From the NCBI RefSeq assembly GCF_900087055.1, contig NZ_LT575468.1, positions 1,488,001-1,552,000 of the forward strand: 64,000 bases of DNA, written 5' to 3'. The DNA is from Plesiomonas shigelloides. Lineage in GTDB: Bacteria; Pseudomonadota; Gammaproteobacteria; Enterobacterales; CAMTGL01. Made by a program: the position numbers and the translations under genes. Each line of letters opens with the position of its first letter. Position 1 is the first letter of the stretch. A model generated the notes under the pieces. That model ran no database searches, was not told the DNA's origin, and was given only the letters and a program-made list of their open reading frames with translations. This document shows positions 56,908-64,000 of this stretch, piece by piece.

Positions 56908-59769
56908 ATGGCTATTCCCTCGCTAACACGCCGCCTATGGCTGGCATTTGTCTTAATGGCGTTACTGACACTGGCCAGTGCGCTGGTGGGATGGCTGAGT
57001 CTGCGCTTTGTCGAGACCGTGGAGCAGAGTAATACTCATGCGCTGCTGCCGACCATGAACATCGCCCGTGAGCTGAGCGAAGCCAGTGCTTATGAGCTGG
57101 TTTCGGCGCAAAACCTCACTGGCGCCACCACGCAACAAGAGTGGTTAGCCCAAGGGCGAATGCTGACCACGCAGAGTCTGAAAATCAGCCGTTTGTTAGC
57201 GCAACTGCAAGCGTTAGGCTTTGATACTACCGCTATTGAACAGCAAGAGGCAGAGATCACCTCGTTACTCGGCAAGCAAGGCTCGCTGGTGGGCGAGCGC
57301 CTTACGTTGCAACAACAGCGTGACAATTTACGCGAAGAAATAGCCCAAGCCACGAGCAAAATTGCGGAACTCGCTAAAGGACAAGCCAGCATCGCGGCTA
57401 CCTCAGCCGGTGCAACGCAAGCGGGGATTTATGATTTGGTCGAGCAACATCAGCGTGACGCCACCTTGCGCGCGCTCGATCAGCTGGCCGATGTGGATTT
57501 GGGCTACCTTGATCAGATGATTGAGCTGCGCTTAAGCGCAATGCGGGTAGAGAAGATCATCAATGGGTTAAGCGATGGACAAGGCGATACGCTCTTAAGT
57601 CAGCAACAGCAACAACTGGCGCAGGCGGTACGCATCTTACACCGTCGTCATTTGCGGGTAGAAGACCCCGGCGTTCGACGCGAATTGGCCGAAGCGATTA
57701 CGACTATCTCGCAGTATCAAGCACTGATTGATATATGCAAAAACATCAATCACATCCAAGGGCAACTGCAGGCATTCAGCCAGAAGAATCTGGAGCTGTT
57801 TACCCGTTTTGGCGATGAAATTAATCGCCAAGTTGCGCAAATTGAACAGCGCAATGCGCAGGCGTTGGAGCAGCTACGTAGCGCACAAAAAACCGGACAA
57901 CGCTGGTTGCTCGGCTTAGCCCTTGTCGCGCTGATTGCCCTGTGTCTGATTTTGTGGCGCTTAGTGTATCGGCAAGTCACGCTGCCTTTAGCGCGTCATA
58001 CTCAAGCGTTGCAATCCCTACTGAACGGCCGATTGGATTCGGCCTTTCCACAAACTGATGGCATGCGCGAGCTGCAAAGCATCAACCGCTTAGCCAACGC
58101 CTTTCGCTCTAGTGTACGTGCACTGCGTTATCACCAAGAACATCTGGAAGAGGAAGTTCGCGAACGCACTGATGAGCTGCAATCGCTGGTGGTGCAACAT
58201 CGTCAGGCGCGCCAAGAAGCAGAAAAAGCCAATCATGCTAAATCTGCCTTTTTGGCGGCCATGAGTCATGAGATCCGAACGCCTCTACACGGCATTTTGG
58301 GTACTGCGCAGCGTTTGTCACAGCAACCTGATTTGTCATCCAAAGAGCGCGATTATGTGCAGGCGATTAATGATTCAGGTGAGTCATTGCTCTCTATCTT
58401 GAATGATATTCTGGATTATTCGGCTATTGAAGAAGGGCAAGCGCAGGTTTCTATCAGTGATGAGCCCTTTGAGCCGGACAGTTTGCTGCGCAGTATTGTT
58501 CGGTTGATGGAAAGTCGGGCATCGGCAAAAGGTATTTATCTTCGTTTTGACTCACATCCCGTAGATAGCTTTGCGCTGGTGGATTCGGGTACTCAGGACA
58601 TTACTCGAGATACGATATTGCTTGGTGATCCGCGCCGTATCCGACAAATCATCGTTAATCTGATCAGCAATGCGCTGCGTTTTACCCAGCAGGGCGGTAT
58701 CACGCTGCGCTGTAGCATGGCTGAGAAGCTCTGGGAAATCAGTGTCACTGATACAGGTTGTGGCATAGCGACTGAGCAGCTACAACAGATATTCGAGCCG
58801 TTTGTGCAATTAGGGCGACAAAGCGGTGGTACCGGCCTCGGGCTTGCGATTTGTAAATCACTGGCCGAAGCGATGGATGGCTCGCTTTCTGTAACGAGCA
58901 CCCCGGCAGAGGGGTGCTGTTTTACACTGCGCTTGCCGTTACGTTTTGCGTCGGTACCCGCTCAATACAGCGGTGAACGTGATTGCTCCCTTGATGGCCT
59001 GCGCTTATTGCTGATAGAAGACAATGCCTTGATTCGCCAGCTCTCGTGCGAGATGCTGGAAAGCAGTGGTGCGCAGGTGTTGGTGGCGGAAAACGGCGCG
59101 CAAGCAAGAGCCGTTTTGGCGAGAGAATTTGCACATGTGCATGGAATGCTGGTTGATTTGTCCTTACCTGATTGTGATGGCGCTGAATTGGCGGTGATGT
59201 TGGCGAAAAGCTATCCGCAGATCCCACGGCTCGCGTTTAGTGCTCATGTCTTAGATAAGGCGTTAGGTGAGAAAATCCGCGATATATTTTGTGGTTTGAT
59301 TCAAAAGCCCGTACAGCAAGAGACATTATGCCGATTAGTGAAACATTATCTGCAAGCCAGTGTTGCAGAGCAACCAAGCGGTAAAAATACGCGTGAAGAG
59401 CGTGTTATCGATAAATGTGCGCAAGTTAGTACAGCTGATTTACTTAATCTGGAGCAGCTACGAGACGACTATCAGCGATTTGGCTTCGCCCGCTTGCATA
59501 AATGGGTATCTTTATTTGAAACCCATAGTCTACCGTTATTGGAGCGTATTCAAACAGAGTTTGAACAGGGAAATGACAAAGCCATCTCTGAGCTGGCACA
59601 TTCACTGAAAAGTAGCTGTGCGAGCTTAGCGATGCAGCAAGCAACAAGCTTGTGCCAGCAACTGGAAAACGATCCGTTAGTACCAAGCACACAACAAGCT
59701 TTAGAGCATGTCACTCGAAGCAGTTTCTCAGCACTTCAGCATTGGCTTGCTGCCCCAAAAGGTGAATAG
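56908..59769 (+). CDS. torS: Unorthodox sensor histidine kinase TorS
   Basis: TMAO sensor of 953 residues. An N-terminal span (LWLAFVLMALLTLASALVGW) and a second at 333-353 enclose the periplasmic helical bundle that meets TorT. The HAMP region follows, then the kinase with His454 in AMSHEIRTPLHG and ATP motifs VNLISNALRFT, DTGCGI and GGTGLGLAI, a receiver with Asp750 in MLVDLSLPDCDG, and an Hpt domain with His898 in ELAHSLKSSCASL. The four-step relay His-Asp-His-Asp(TorR) is complete. Its stop is only five bases from the end of the convergent integrase gene. Confidence 0.97.
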   Translation: MAIPSLTRRLWLAFVLMALLTLASALVGWLSLRFVETVEQSNTHALLPTMNIARELSEASAYELVSAQNLTGATTQQEWLAQGRMLTTQSLKISRLLAQLQALGFDTTAIEQQEAEITSLLGKQGSLVGERLTLQQQRDNLREEIAQATSKIAELAKGQASIAATSAGATQAGIYDLVEQHQRDATLRALDQLADVDLGYLDQMIELRLSAMRVEKIINGLSDGQGDTLLSQQQQQLAQAVRILHRRHLRVEDPGVRRELAEAITTISQYQALIDICKNINHIQGQLQAFSQKNLELFTRFGDEINRQVAQIEQRNAQALEQLRSAQKTGQRWLLGLALVALIALCLILWRLVYRQVTLPLARHTQALQSLLNGRLDSAFPQTDGMRELQSINRLANAFRSSVRALRYHQEHLEEEVRERTDELQSLVVQHRQARQEAEKANHAKSAFLAAMSHEIRTPLHGILGTAQRLSQQPDLSSKERDYVQAINDSGESLLSILNDILDYSAIEEGQAQVSISDEPFEPDSLLRSIVRLMESRASAKGIYLRFDSHPVDSFALVDSGTQDITRDTILLGDPRRIRQIIVNLISNALRFTQQGGITLRCSMAEKLWEISVTDTGCGIATEQLQQIFEPFVQLGRQSGGTGLGLAICKSLAEAMDGSLSVTSTPAEGCCFTLRLPLRFASVPAQYSGERDCSLDGLRLLLIEDNALIRQLSCEMLESSGAQVLVAENGAQARAVLAREFAHVHGMLVDLSLPDCDGAELAVMLAKSYPQIPRLAFSAHVLDKALGEKIRDIFCGLIQKPVQQETLCRLVKHYLQASVAEQPSGKNTREERVIDKCAQVSTADLLNLEQLRDDYQRFGFARLHKWVSLFETHSLPLLERIQTEFEQGNDKAISELAHSLKSSCASLAMQQATSLCQQLENDPLVPSTQQALEHVTRSSFSALQHWLAAPKGE

Positions 59770-59774
59770 CCACA

Positions 59775-60746
59775 CTACAAATCAGAAAATGGACTGCGCA
59801 CGCCACTGGCACCTTGCTGTAAGACGTGCGTATAGATCTGGGTTGTGCGCACATCCGAATGGCCCAGTTGCTCCTGCACCGTGCGGATATCCGCACCGCG
59901 AGCGAGCAGATGAGTCGCGAACGAGTGGCGTAGCGTATGGCAACTTACCGGTTTGGTGATTTGTAATTTACGCGCCGCAAAGCGCACTGCTTTTTGTAAT
60001 GTGGTGGCATCCAAATGATGCCTACGAAGTGCGTGATTTTCCGGATCGCGACTTAAGCGGCTGGCAGGAAAAAGATAATGCCATCCAAGCTCCATTGGCC
60101 CATTCGGGTATTTTCGTGCTAATGCATAGGGCATTTTCACCCCATCGTAGCCTTCCGTTTCGCGATCGCCATCAAAGCACTGGCGGACATAAGCGATTTG
60201 CTCCTTAATCGCAGGGACCAGCTCCGCAGCTAATGTTACCCGCCGATGTTTGCCACCTTTGGCATTCCACACGCAGATGCACAGGTAGTCGAAATCGATA
60301 TCCCGCACACGAAGACGCATGACCTCCATCAGTCGCAGACCGCTGCCATACATCAATTGCGCCGCTAGGCGTAAATGTGCTGGGATCGCCAACAACAGAT
60401 CGCGCACCTCAGTACGTGTCAGCACCGAAGGCAACTTGGGCGATTTACGACTGTGCTGAAATTGCATCTCCATACTCAATGGCTGTTTCAACACGGTTTT
60501 ATAGAGATAGGACAGGGCATTGAGAGCTTGCGCTTGGGTCTTTGTCGACACCTGTCGCTCACAAGCCAGATAAGTCAAAAATGTCTGCACTTCATGCTCA
60601 CCCATCTTGGATGGATGGCGCAGCTTATGGAAGCGAATATAGAACTTAATCCAATAGATATAAGCGCCAACAGTGTTCATCGCATAGCGCTGAGTCAGCA
60701 TCAGTTCATAGATACTAGCAAGGAAAGGAGAACTGGGTTTACGCAT
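59775..60746 (-). CDS. intI: Integron integrase (IntI, Vibrio chromosomal type)
   Basis: Site-specific tyrosine recombinase that inserts and excises gene cassettes. With the start at 60746 it has 323 residues (V. cholerae IntIA: 320). The catalytic residues Arg138 (GSGLRLMEV), His270 and Arg273 (SCHTLRHSF), His296 (LGHSD) and Tyr305 (IYTHVL) are all present. The extra segment found only in integron integrases is also there (about residues 200-245, with WHYLFPASRLSRDPENHALR and RRHHLD). GAGAA precedes the start. It is read away from attI and the cassette array, the normal integron polarity. A longer frame to 60812 overlaps the promoter and LexA-like box. Confidence 0.95.
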   Translation of the reverse strand: MRKPSSPFLASIYELMLTQRYAMNTVGAYIYWIKFYIRFHKLRHPSKMGEHEVQTFLTYLACERQVSTKTQAQALNALSYLYKTVLKQPLSMEMQFQHSRKSPKLPSVLTRTEVRDLLLAIPAHLRLAAQLMYGSGLRLMEVMRLRVRDIDFDYLCICVWNAKGGKHRRVTLAAELVPAIKEQIAYVRQCFDGDRETEGYDGVKMPYALARKYPNGPMELGWHYLFPASRLSRDPENHALRRHHLDATTLQKAVRFAARKLQITKPVSCHTLRHSFATHLLARGADIRTVQEQLGHSDVRTTQIYTHVLQQGASGVRSPFSDL

Positions 60747-60763
60747 AAAATTCTCAGATAAGC

Positions 60764-60779
60764 CTGTATATGCATACAC
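60764..60779 (-). promoter_or_regulatory. LexA-like box at the intI promoter
   Basis: CTGTATATGCATACAC agrees with the LexA site CTG-N10-CAG (core TATATATATA) except for the last base. It lies 18 bases upstream of the integrase start codon, where repressor would block transcription. Confidence 0.65.
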
Positions 60780-60812
60780 TATAAATGCAATTCCGCCTTT
60801 CGCCTGCCGCAA

Positions 60813-60969
60813 AGTTCAAAATTTCCGCATATCTTGCAAATTTGAGATGCAAATTACAGGTTAATACATTGATTTTAGGTTGGATTCGGTGTTTGGGAGA
60901 AGAGCCCCTGTGTGGATATAGGGGCTAGGGAGTGCGATACTATATGGAAAGAGGCTGTATAATAAATTG
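60813..60969 (+). other. attI region with hairpin and probable cassette promoter
   Basis: The crossover point is in GTTATAC, between G60969 and T60970, inferred from the inverse core GTATAAC at the end of cassette 1. Upstream are a perfect inverted repeat AGCCCCT (60903-60909) / AGGGGCT (60920-60926), a TATAAT at 60958-60963 that may be the -10 box of the cassette promoter Pc, and GTTGGAT near 60878, which fits the integrase core GTTRRRY. The exact left limit of attI cannot be set by eye. Confidence 0.65.
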
Positions 60970-60987
60970 TTATACCTAAGGAAGCAC

Positions 60988-61650
60988 ATGAGCAGTATTT
61001 ACGAAATAATTAAAAAAGATCCGCAGTACTATGTTTGGCTGTTTGGGCTGATCAATGCGGGGTGGATCGTATTCGTATTTCTATTTAAATCATGGCATGA
61101 AAGGCAACTTAAAAGGCTAGAGCAAGACTTAAGGTTTGATGCCGAAAGGCGCTTAAAAGTCTTTGACTTGAAAGCCACTGAATATGCAAACTATGTTGCT
61201 AGCTTGGATCAATTTGGGAAGAAAAATCAGCGTGAAATAATGGGGCGGATGCAGCCTATTTTCGATCAATACCTTAATGATTTTATGGCTGCTTCAGTTG
61301 AAAACAACCAAGAGAAAGCTCGCGAAGTGTTGGTATGGTTTAGCCAACAAATCTCACTCATTATGCGCGAAGGAGGAGAAGATTTTTTAAAATTAAAATC
61401 AGAGTCTAATAGGTTAAAGTTGATAGCGACTGACGAGATGCTTGGAACTTTTCAACAGTTGGAAGACTTGACTGAATTATCAATGAACACCGCACATGAA
61501 TTCATGGGTAAATGGACGGAGATAGTCCTAAATCAGCAAACTTCAGTCCAGGAAGAATATTTAGCTAAACTTAATGATATATCATCAGATATTCAGGTGC
61601 AGTCTAAGTTGCTAATGAATCAGATGCGAACGGAAATACGTGGAATTTAG
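60988..61650 (+). CDS. Cassette 1 protein: membrane-anchored coiled-coil protein of unknown function
   Basis: A 220-residue protein that I do not recognise. One membrane span at residues 17-33 (VWLFGLINAGWIVFVFLF) is followed by a long, strongly charged helical region (KSWHERQLKRLEQDLRFDAE and on) with coiled-coil character to the C-terminus. The start at 60988 is set by AAGGA at 60978-60982, only eight bases inside the cassette boundary. It is the only gene of the four cassettes that is read in the same direction as Pc, and it occupies the first, best expressed position. The TAG stop is directly followed by the attC inverse core. Confidence 0.8.
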   Translation: MSSIYEIIKKDPQYYVWLFGLINAGWIVFVFLFKSWHERQLKRLEQDLRFDAERRLKVFDLKATEYANYVASLDQFGKKNQREIMGRMQPIFDQYLNDFMAASVENNQEKAREVLVWFSQQISLIMREGGEDFLKLKSESNRLKLIATDEMLGTFQQLEDLTELSMNTAHEFMGKWTEIVLNQQTSVQEEYLAKLNDISSDIQVQSKLLMNQMRTEIRGI

Positions 61651-61773
61651 GTATAACAAAAAGCTCAAGCAGGGACATTTTGAAATGGGCATTCGCTACG
61701 CGAATCTTATGCCCATTTCAAACCGCTGCGCACGCAAGCGTACTACGCTATGCCCCTTAGCTAAATGTTAGCT
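61651..61773 (+). repeat. attC site of cassette 1
   Basis: The 123-base site runs from inverse core GTATAAC (61651-61657) to core GTTAGCT (61767-61773). The ends TAACAAAAAGCTCAAGCAGG and ATGCCCCTTAGCTAAATGTT are close to V. cholerae VCR ends. An inner hairpin pairs GAAATGGGCAT with ATGCCCATTTC. Confidence 0.93.
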
Positions 61774-61839
61774 GAAAGGCGAATTTAATAGGCTTTTGTG
61801 GGTCAAATTTGCGCTCTTGCTATAGTATATTTTTACGGC

Positions 61840-62190
61840 TCAATTGTATTTTTTCTTCGATTTAGCTTTTGCGTTGAATGGGGGAGTTGTCTTGGCTACT
61901 TCATCGTTTACGTAAATGTCGTATTCTTTCCAGTAGCGTATTCGGCGTAATCTGGCCAAGTTGCCGATGTATCTTCAGTGTTCACGGTAAGTCAGTATTC
62001 TTTCCAATCCTGTGCATTGTAGGTGAGCGGTCGCGTTGAAGAGTCTGCGGTGTAGGCGAATGTAATCCTGTTTTCTTTCCAGTCAGCTGGTTCGGCTGCA
62101 ACTGAGAGTTTTGGCATAGCAAACTTTGATACAACTGCAAAATCGTATTCTTTCCTCTTGTTTGCATGGTGTTTAGCTGCACGAAATCAG
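61840..62190 (-). pseudogene. Cassette 2: decayed reverse-strand gene of 25-residue repeats
   Basis: No intact frame fills this cassette. On the reverse strand, however, four copies of a motif (DNA tattctttcc, protein W/R-K-E-Y/N) stand at 61922, 61996, 62071 and 62146, that is 74, 75 and 75 bases apart. Reading the repeats gives RKEYDFAVVSKFAMPKLSVA and WKENRITFAYTADSSTRPLT as starts of two full 25-residue units. A TGA stop interrupts the third unit (WKEY-stop) and a one-base deletion then shifts the frame to the last unit, WKEYDIYVNDEVAKTT, which ends at 61840. The function is unknown. Confidence 0.6.
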
Positions 62191-62332
62191 AGTTCTTTTG
62201 CACAACAGGTGGCGAATGGTCGAGTCACGTGGAAGTGTGTGAATAGAATAGGGCCAGTACAATGCTCGCCAAGATCTATTGTCCTGTTTAGTTGGTCGGC
62301 AAATCTAGTGTTTTTAGCTACCTTGGGGTTTC

Positions 62333-62454
62333 AGCTAACAAAAAACTCAACAGGGACATTTTGAAATGGGCATTCGCTGCGCGAATTTTACGCCCATTTC
62401 AAACCACTGCGCATGCAAGCATGCTACGTTATGCCCCTTAGTTAGAAGTTATCA
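62333..62454 (+). repeat. attC site of cassette 2
   Basis: The 122-base site runs from inverse core AGCTAAC (62333-62339), complementary to the core at 61767, to core GTTATCA (62448-62454). The inner part agrees with attC of cassette 1 in nearly all positions. Confidence 0.93.
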
Positions 62455-62568
62455 GGAGTGGTTTTGAACTAAGAGTGTAGGTGAGTGCTAGAATGGTAAT
62501 GTGCATTTATTAACTGAAATCGTTCAGCATTAATAAATTATGTTTTAGCTGAAGATAAGATTTTTTAA

Positions 62569-62865
62569 TTATATTTTCTGCATGTCTTTTCTTTCTTCTT
62601 GGCACTCATATGATCCCATCTCGAATTGACGACAAATCCAAGGTCTATTTTCATATATGGTGCACAGAAGAGTTTCACGATCCAAAGCAGAGCACCAACC
62701 GTCCTCTAAGCGTCGCATCGTTTCGCCACCCCATTTGTCGACAGCAATATGGTGCCTAGGAACTCCAGTATCAGAAATTATCATCACTTCTAGCTTGCAA
62801 CAGCAAGCCTGACAGTTTGAGCACAATATTTCGTTTTCTGGCTGAATTGTGATAGGAATATTCAT
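62569..62865 (-). CDS. Cassette 3 protein: YkgJ-type cysteine-cluster protein
   Basis: A 98-residue protein with the cysteine pattern of the YkgJ/UPF0153 family, thought to bind zinc or iron: LCSNCQACCCKLEV (residues 14-27), C in WCSALDRETLLCTIYENRP, and WICRQFEMGSYEC at 76-88. Nine or ten cysteines occur in 98 residues. Its metal and role are unknown. It is read against the array direction, so it needs its own promoter, presumably in the 62866-63110 stretch of the same cassette. Confidence 0.82.
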   Translation of the reverse strand: MNIPITIQPENEILCSNCQACCCKLEVMIISDTGVPRHHIAVDKWGGETMRRLEDGWCSALDRETLLCTIYENRPWICRQFEMGSYECQEERKDMQKI

Positions 62866-63114
62866 GGCGAACTTATGTAGAAAAGACAGTCTATTGTACT
62901 ATAGCTAAAACCTCTAGCCATAAGCATTATGTACGTTTCAAGGCTTTATTACGAAACAAATGAATACTTGTCTTATAACTGTGGGTGCCGTGTAAATGTT
63001 AATCATCAATTTGGTTGCCCAAGGTTATCATGGGGTTACTATACCTGCTGTTTAGCAGGTTAGGTCATTATGTGGTTTTTCGTCAAACATATGGCTTATC
63101 GTACATCGGCTCCG
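62866..63114. other. Non-coding part of cassette 3
   Basis: No gene that I can support. A hairpin ACCTGC (63043-63048) / GCAGGT (63055-63060) is followed directly by GTTAGGT (63059-63065), which fits the integrase core consensus; a GTTATCA lies at 63024-63030. These may be remains of an older attC, but the other half is not visible. Confidence 0.35.
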
Positions 63115-63196
63115 TGATAACAAGAAGTTGAAGCAGGGACATTTTGAAATGGGCATTCGCTATGCGAATTTTATGCCCCTTAACTAAATGTTATCA
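63115..63196 (+). repeat. Shortened attC site of cassette 3 (82 bp)
   Basis: The site runs from inverse core TGATAAC (63115-63121) to core GTTATCA (63190-63196). Compared with the 123-base site of cassette 1 it lacks exactly the 41 bases between two copies of ATGCCC. One copy of ATGCCC remains, as expected of recombination or slippage between these six-base repeats. Confidence 0.9.
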
Positions 63197-63410
63197 TAAA
63201 GGGCGATAAATTAACATTGTCGTTGCATGAGAGAGTCTTAACATTGCCGTAGTAGAGTACTATGGCGAATGGGAAACTCTATATCTTTAACGAGGTATTA
63301 GGTGGTGAGCAACGCTGACCACCGCAATTAGCGTATTATGCTGAAAGCATAAAATTAAACGTAAACCAAAATGCCAATTATTGGGGAACAGTCTTACATG
63401 TTTTATTGGT

Positions 63411-63695
63411 TTATTTTAATAAATACAATATATCAGCTTTAGGGACAGGAGACGCTGAGTCAAATATAATAATTAACCCACTTATAGGGGATTTGTACTT
63501 TTGAATGCATACTGTACTTTTTAACTGAATCACATATGCTTGATTTTTGTTACCTGGAGATACATTAACCACTGGTTCATTAGTGACGCCAATGTTAATG
63601 TGATTAATTGACACCGTATCTCCAATAGCTAAAGTTATTGGGCTTCCAAAAATATTGCGCAAATCTTGGTCATTGTTAATATCATAATGTGCCAT
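63411..63695 (-). CDS. Cassette 4 protein: small protein of unknown function
   Basis: A 94-residue protein that I do not recognise. It begins MAHYDINNDQDLRNIFGSPI and has alternating hydrophobic residues suggesting beta strands (TLAIGDTVSINHINIGV, AYVIQLKSTVCIQKY). There is no signal peptide and a single cysteine. GGAG stands five to six bases before the start, which supports translation. It is read against the array direction, as in cassette 3. Confidence 0.65.
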   Translation of the reverse strand: MAHYDINNDQDLRNIFGSPITLAIGDTVSINHINIGVTNEPVVNVSPGNKNQAYVIQLKSTVCIQKYKSPISGLIIIFDSASPVPKADILYLLK

Positions 63696-63901
63696 ATATA
63701 CTCCAATTTTAATTGTATTTCATACTGAAAGCTAACAGCGTTATTAAGCTGAAATTATTGATACAGTAACACTGTATGCACTCGGTGTCACCCTGTGCAA
63801 CGAGTTACCCTGTGATTTGTTGTCATTTTTTCTATTGAAGTAAAGTTAGCTCGTGTGTTGTGAGCGGTTAGCTCACATCGCAGTGCGAGTATCGGGTTCA
63901 G

Positions 63902-64000
63902 TGATAACAAAAAGTTGAAACAGGGACATTTTGAAATGGGCATTCACTACGCGAATTTTATGCCCATTTCAAACCGCTGCGCACGCAGGCGTGCTGCGCT
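63902..64000 (+). repeat. attC site of cassette 4 (cut by window end)
   Basis: It begins with inverse core TGATAAC (63902-63908), complementary to the core at 63190, and follows the long form of the site (with CCCATTTCAAACCGCTGCGC) up to the end of the window. Confidence 0.92.

Follow-up and report, generated by a model that had tools for sequence, protein, structure and literature searches.

A candidate two-tier chromosomal integron in Plesiomonas shigelloides, with backward attI-like sites inside its cassettes

How does an integron come to carry most of its long genes turned back toward attI? The question is raised by a locus of Plesiomonas shigelloides that lies across the end of the window, the stretch of 64,000 nucleotides analysed here (positions 1488001-1552000 of the single 3,405,979-base contig NZ_LT575468.1). 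The original prediction for this DNA had read from it surrounding genes of enterobacterial type (Plesiomonas is filed in Enterobacterales) and a sedentary-type chromosomal integron directly behind torS, with an intact integrase (IntI), attI and at least four cassettes. Only the edge of the integron is seen in the window, and the system is far larger. It probably comprises two tiers, in which foreign cassettes were taken up by a secondary attI lying in reverse inside host-type cassettes, so that the whole would be a two-tier superintegron. The first tier, read directly, consists of IntI, attI and 78 two-ended attC of the host type (P-type) that bound cassettes in the usual way. The second consists of 31 of 77 cassettes, called shells below, in which the junctions are visible and the capture process is proposed.

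The outer array was surveyed in 120 kb around the window's end. It has 79 attC-like sites, all in one orientation and 78 of them with both ends, and its far end, at genome position 1630677, is about 82 kb away from attI and 82.9 kb away from the 3' end of intI. A short array is thereby ruled out, and the array that continues past position 64000 is no short run of unrelated sites. A search with a 22-base seed, allowing 5 substitutions at most, gave 78 matches on the plus strand and one on the minus strand (the hairpin arm of one site), and the TAAC-to-GTT length is 115-116 bp in 67 of the 68 attC completed by the first parsing, a long layout that we liken to that of the Vibrio cholerae repeats (VCR). 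The 77 cassettes from the second onward have a median length of 930 bp. Their end positions 3-5 pair with the cassette's own other end in 97-99% of cases and with the neighbour's in 59-67%; judged by these ends, the cassettes behave as units cut at G|TT. The clearest pairing failure is cassette 64, a fusion across a truncated attC. With cassette 64 excluded, 62 of 76 sites taken in circle form have the more stable fold on the bottom strand, whose mean advantage is 1.6 kcal/mol. Cassettes 25 and 63, 40 kb apart, are identical across 806 bp including attC, which points to recent mobility of first-tier cassettes. A scan of 6 kb against Rfam gave nothing at gathering score. With its integrase, attI, large and uniform attC array, chromosomal place and unit-like cassettes, the element is a sedentary chromosomal integron.

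The integrase gene (intI, 59775-60746, minus strand) is divergent from the cassette array and encodes 323 amino acids without an internal stop. The protein scores 447.9 bits against NCBIfam TIGR02249 (cut-off 265), and its best solved relative is IntI4 (entry 2a3v), a V. cholerae protein. Residues R138, K163, K166, H270, R273, H296 and Y305 do not vary among 8 aligned IntI and bear out the complete catalytic set that had been predicted; their catalytic roles, like the IntI-specific insert, are general features of these enzymes. In a tree of 84 rows, the host IntI forms a set of five (support 100/99) with that of a sister genome (G001, the only other genome of the genus compared), two from Aeromonadaceae assemblies and one from an Escherichia coli IncX1 plasmid, nested in a 56-row group with Vibrio, Colwellia and Rheinheimera integrases. 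IntI1 and IntI2 stand outside this group on long branches and with unsure placement; kinship with class 1 or class 2 is ruled out by the tree, which does not include IntI3. The plasmid integrase (AP027469.1, 19196-20167; the plasmid carries tet(M)) is 72.7% identical to the host IntI and groups with an Aeromonadaceae one; no P-type attC lies within 9 kb around it.

Upstream of intI, at 60764-60779 on the minus strand, stands CTGTATATGCATACAC, a LexA-box-like sequence one base off the CTG-N10-CAG core of the LexA consensus, and a variant form of it occurs in the sister genome. LexA control of intI is suggested only by this box with its single core mismatch. The attI site (60934-60972, plus strand) has its crossover at G60969/T60970 (AATTG|TTA). 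This position is placed by the sister genome, whose IntI is 93% identical: the two share the upstream flank as far as AATAAATTG and then diverge, at AATTG|TTA, into different first cassettes. A weak in-register match to the shell site model described below agrees with it.

Beyond attI, the cassettes depart from a usual, non-defining trait of sedentary integrons, in which open reading frames (ORFs) run mostly from attI to attC. The 77 cassettes have 59 non-overlapping ORFs of at least 120 aa; 42 of these face attI (backward) and 17 face away from it, and the same ORF caller gave 42 backward and 19 forward across the whole stretch from intI. Two control sets, which may overlap and in which every stretch is at most 20 kb, are mostly forward: 121 forward and 9 backward (9/130) in the 10 of 19 fetched stretches having at least 3 repeat sites, and 84 forward and 2 backward (2/86) from 17 of 60 loci tried (80 fetched). 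The highest control value, 6 of 19 long ORFs, belongs to a Vibrio-type array of Vibrionaceae (L163, genome G360), so that the trait differs in degree. Chance ORFs were rejected as the source of the backward genes: with overlapping ORFs counted, 54 of at least 150 aa were seen against 0.0 expected in simulated sequence, and 62 of at least 120 aa against 0.6.

The backward genes are concentrated in cassettes with a common frame. This frame has two recurrent modules: M5, which opens the cassette and contains a 9-bp hairpin, and M3, which precedes attC. M5 occurs in 31 of the 77 cassettes, M3 in 27 and both in 22, with all matches on one strand; four weaker M3 matches belong to family X, which is ORF-less. 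Any cassette with M5 is counted as a shell. By main ORF of at least 90 aa, 27 shells are backward, 2 forward and 2 have none; the other 46 cassettes comprise 15 backward, 14 forward, 16 in two ORF-less families and 1 without an ORF (27/2 against 15/14, p 8e-4).

In the better-kept shells, a conserved stretch (...CGCATAATACGCTG|TTA) stands ahead of the captured gene. A model of this secondary site, built from 10 seeds that account for 10 of its 22 copies, finds those copies on the minus strand at E<=0.02 in 21 cassettes, all of them shells, and 20 of the copies at E<=1e-3. On the plus strand, seven partial matches at E<=0.02 coincide with these sites, whose sequence is partly palindromic. In 17 shells (136 pairs), identity is 0.687 over the 100 bp before the crossover and 0.451 over the 100 bp after it, against 0.448 when shuffled, and the value before exceeds the value after in 136 of 136 pairs; the upstream figure weighs less for the capture reading than it seems, being partly built in by the choice of shells with the site model, and the informative part is that the likeness stops at the bar, G|TTA. 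The first backward ORF starts 2-40 bp behind this crossover in 14 of the 17 shells and 105 bp behind it in one; two have no backward ORF of 90 aa.

Cassette 4 is a shell that begins inside the window (63191-64000, plus strand) and runs on to 64018; it lay within the predicted integron and had been overlooked. Its M5 (63191-63314, plus strand; nhmmer E 2e-23) is overlapped by a degraded Vibrio-type attC in backward orientation (63295-63406, minus strand; nhmmer E 5e-9). A backward gene of 94 aa without a Pfam match follows (63411-63695, minus strand), then the secondary attI-like site (63732-63806, minus strand; nhmmer E 3.5e-9) and M3 (63781-63905, plus strand; nhmmer E 2e-22).

That the secondary site is of attI type is read from other integrons. 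The model was run upstream of 104 intI (102 other loci, with some genomes twice, the sister genome and the window's own) and matched at seven loci at E<=0.1, namely L040, L021, L058, the host's own attI, L076, L055 and L097. In six of the seven, the match ends no more than 2 bases from the place, 226-252 nt upstream of intI, where the GTTA of attI is expected, and L097 falls short of it; 20 simulated sets (first-order Markov) gave one match in total. In 1.64 Mb of 129 loci, 7 of 9 matches at E<=5 sit at attI places, L097 again only partly. The attI of the sister genome reaches E 2.9 only. As recent copies of the host attI the shell sites were rejected, with no copy found by BLAST and a weak likeness by model. 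By these matches, the shell site is an attI-type site that either has diverged from the present host attI or has another origin. BLAST of the own attI of other loci (30 located; sister genome skipped) gave extra matches in some of them, those listed lying in or near intI; dispersed attI copies were not seen in these loci, many of which are short.

The captured genes, in turn, bring attC of another kind. A model of 60 Vibrio sites picks out nine Vibrio-type attC across the 120 kb, every one of them on the minus strand and with E between 3e-3 and 7e-28. Cassettes 4, 12, 23, 28, 36, 37, 56 and 72 hold one each; the ninth comes after the last attC of the array, together with one more M5, and no P-type attC follows it. 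Where read, the foreign attC is on the far side of the captured gene and adjoins M5, save in cassette 28, where an insertion sequence (IS) intervenes. This element (genome 1578407-1579063) has an IS1595-type transposase, is ISEc75-like and is about 90% identical to Providencia and Morganella plasmids. Cassettes 24, 35, 47 and 74 have shorter, different attC-like ends at the same place. By megablast of three of six fetched 20-kb stretches (L004, L005 and L006) against plasmids, some embedded sites match Vibrio records, at 88-92% at best and otherwise at 80-87%. Among 129 integron loci, no listed match to the inner cassettes exceeded 150 bp.

Some inner cassettes also retain matching ends. The test asked for at least 7 nt of the start repeated in reverse complement before AAC within the last 300 nt, in the 18 shells with a readable bar (the 22 sites minus those of cassettes 8, 11 and 33 and the second of cassette 23); because several actual starts differ (CTA in three), TTA was imposed as the first three letters throughout, controls included. 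Ends matched in 8 of 18 shells against 2 of 306 mismatched start-end combinations (p 7e-10), at 56-123 bp before the inner end and ahead of several attC kinds. At 6 nt or more the counts were 9/18 and 15/306, one of the nine lying inside the IS of cassette 28. Direct insertion of foreign cassettes at a P-type attC through the wrong attC strand was rejected; M5 and M3 intervene.

Taken together, a well-kept shell reads backward as M3, an attI-like site ending G|TTA, a captured cassette, M5 with its hairpin and the P-type attC, and the captured cassette has its gene first and its own attC, foreign where recognisable, last. We infer that foreign cassettes joined at the shell site through an attI x attC reaction, and a loaded shell would then travel as one P-type cassette. 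A promoter is probably present in the M3/attI region, because the captured backward ORF starts so close behind the crossover in 14 of 17 shells. With shells turned against the array, the insert would not be lost simply through recombination of its attC with the outer one.

The strand of the array bears on this arrangement. GC skew is positive on both flanks and the array is on the plus strand, so the bottom strands of the outer attC should be leading-strand template, with fork direction taken from skew only. The accessible text of PMC11023631 states this placement for superintegrons. The inner attC, in the opposite orientation, would have their bottom strands on the lagging template. A fuller version of the two-tier reading is a possibility that we advance tentatively: shell cassettes may be small capture platforms with their own attI-like site, promoter and terminator, whose backward facing spares the inner cassette and puts its folding strand on the lagging template, so that the outer array stays stable while about 20-30 inner slots exchange foreign cassettes, expressed away from the cassette promoter (Pc). 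Higher mobility of the inner tier is a prediction.

Several observations weigh against capture at shell sites. Ten of the 31 shells have no secondary site at E<=0.02, and an empty shell was not found, the four matches to one with 5-7 substitutions being attC-to-M5 junctions. The host attI matches the shell model in register yet weakly (E 0.07 in 120 kb; range 0.027-0.07), BLAST with it gives no copy in the array, and the integrase that would load the shell sites may or may not be the host's. The 7-nt test fails for ten of the 18 inner cassettes; the script misplaced the inner end in several, cassettes 39, 41, 44 and 64 among them (by eye, 39 pairs and 41 pairs over 5 nt), and other ends are truly degraded. 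Shells 39, 41 and 44 have a related inner end (by eye), so that captures are not all independent. The 15 backward cassettes outside the shells are left unexplained by two tiers, and one shell-like cassette on a plasmid of another strain, described next, has forward genes.

Shells were sought outside this genome. A shell piece searched against 393 further genomes of the order (2 candidates scored in each) found only matches of 29 and 35 bp, in two of them. The first cassette of the sister genome starts like a shell (E 1e-7), and a query of attC plus M5 found no match in that genome, whose sequence breaks off 68 bp into the cassette. Plasmid NZ_CP027853.1 of P. shigelloides MS-17-188, searched whole, has a 32-kb stretch with two P-type attC (one partial), three M5, three M3 and one secondary site, and its attC and M5 matches are confined to that stretch. 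By the shell-type start in the sister genome and the modules on this plasmid, shells belong to the genus and not to one strain.

Of the explanations in which shells captured nothing here, one supposes that whole foreign platforms, with attI, first cassettes and flank, were each captured as a unit. The three foreign attI that outscore the host attI with the shell model (L040, L021 and L058) fit it, as does the BLAST result without a host attI copy in the array. Against it, M3 and M5 ends of identical type enclose cassettes with different attC kinds, which argues for inner exchange after or alongside shell formation, and elsewhere in the order the shell piece matches at most 35 bp; we regard such wholesale capture as unlikely. 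Homologous recombination offers another route, in which RecA-type exchange between common cassette ends, with promoter and terminator, swaps the genes and the attI likeness is that of a shared promoter. In most members M5 and M3 measure about 80-130 bp, with enough similarity for such exchange, and fused shells exist (cassettes 23 and 64). Yet the homology stops at a single base step, G|TTA, the site matches the attI positions of other integrons, and exchange of this kind does not predict inner cassettes with their own attC and matching ends, so we think it quite improbable. An ordinary superintegron with some genes simply reversed and no nesting can draw on the reverse genes of other arrays (the 9/130 and 6/19 above) and on the 15 backward non-shell cassettes, but is hardly credible, leaving the backward-strand foreign attC, the shared frame and the junction unexplained.

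The setting of the integron is chromosomal. On its left stand torC, torR, torT and torS, every one above its own NCBIfam cut-off, with torS (56908-59769, plus strand; NF008543/TIGR02956) ending 5 bp from intI. Past the array on the right are a 6-phosphofructokinase-II gene (pfkB), a GNAT-like and a tesA-like gene (the latter two by eye) and a YbbA-like ABC gene slightly below the curated cut-off. The integron is thus bounded by chromosomal genes on the torS side and on the pfkB/ybbA side. The predicted place next to torS holds for this genome; in the sister genome, intI adjoins a chemotaxis-receptor-like gene (by eye), and torS was not found in that 75%-complete assembly. As to the host, the contig has 10 exact matches, in rRNA, to the Plesiomonas 23S primer PS23FW3 (sequence from the accessible part of PMC7409234), against none in 20 relatives, the second genome of the genus among them. 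They identify the genus as Plesiomonas and make P. shigelloides the most likely species.

The remaining cassettes in the window are varied, and four attC confirm the predicted minimum of four cassettes. Cassette 1 (60970-61767, plus strand) has a forward ORF (60988-61650), ends TTATACC / GGTATAA that are complementary by eye, and attC 1 (61655-61769, plus strand; seed search and site parsing). Cassette 2 (61768-62448, plus strand) is without a long ORF and was placed in family X by family comparison; its attC 2 (62337-62450, plus strand) came from the seed search. Cassette 3 (62449-63190, plus strand) has a backward gene called at 62865-62569, with a CxxCxxCC domain, and a short attC 3 without the second arm (63119-63192, plus strand; seed search and parsing), and attC 4 (63906-64000, plus strand; seed search) is cut by the window end.

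The two ORF-less families are related to each other and comprise 16 cassettes of 353-694 bp, none with a long ORF (cassette 2, at genome 1549768, and 15 others; one assigned by ends only). Stretches resembling TATTCTTTCC recur in them, and in the backward direction parts of them look by eye like decayed coding sequence. Array cassettes also include defence-like genes, a Thoeris TIR-like gene and a restriction-modification pair among them. In a PADLOC test of 10 cassette proteins, shell cassette 35 (genome 1586544-1587149) gave a ThsB TIR-like (Thoeris) match at E 2e-65, and the captured gene of shell cassette 39 (genome 1592284-1593279) matched PDC-S21 at E 7e-119. Cassette 49 (3.1 kb; genome 1601450-1604563) has a convergent pair of type II restriction enzyme and methyltransferase.

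Cassettes are generally described, in the available portions of PMC11551772 and PMC11023631, as entering at a single attI and as mostly promoterless. For Plesiomonas shigelloides, PMC6309461 deals, in its accessible part, with class I integrons only. In the literature found, there was no description of a Plesiomonas chromosomal integron with attC, nothing joining sedentary chromosomal integrons and Enterobacterales, and no report of nested backward capture sites; subscription journals were mostly outside reach, and an earlier description is possible. The locus adds a large superintegron to a genus of Enterobacterales, Plesiomonas, that is associated with humans and fish. If the two-tier reading is true, cassettes with their own attI-like site would provide many entry points and many expressed positions, and one integron could store the cassettes of other integron lineages along with their attC. 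Outer and inner attC on opposite strands would also offer a natural contrast for the rule that the attC strand controls stability.

Known systems share some of these features. Insertion of cassettes outside the main attI is a property of attG sites; the shell sites, by comparison, share a core with the platform attI and sit inside cassettes. Delta-attI-type cassettes of class 1 and 2 integrons likewise hold attI sequence inside cassettes, and in them a partial attI replaces attC downstream of the ORF (PMC12901181, in its accessible part, where attG is also named). In shells, by contrast, the attI-like site is upstream of the captured gene and backward to the array, and attC is kept, so that they are not of the Delta-attI type. 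Gene-less promoter cassettes of Vibrio (PMC11014356, accessible part) have expression signals away from Pc, as shells would if their promoter is real; they are without an ORF and are mostly directed on the sense strand toward the next cassette, whereas shells have a gene behind the attI-like site. Vibrio superintegrons, including that of V. cholerae, are like the Plesiomonas array in the broad group of IntI, the divergence of intI and array, the tens of cassettes and the presence of duplicated and gene-less cassettes. The Plesiomonas array differs from them in its mostly backward long ORFs, its shells with an attI-like site and foreign attC, and its place behind torS.

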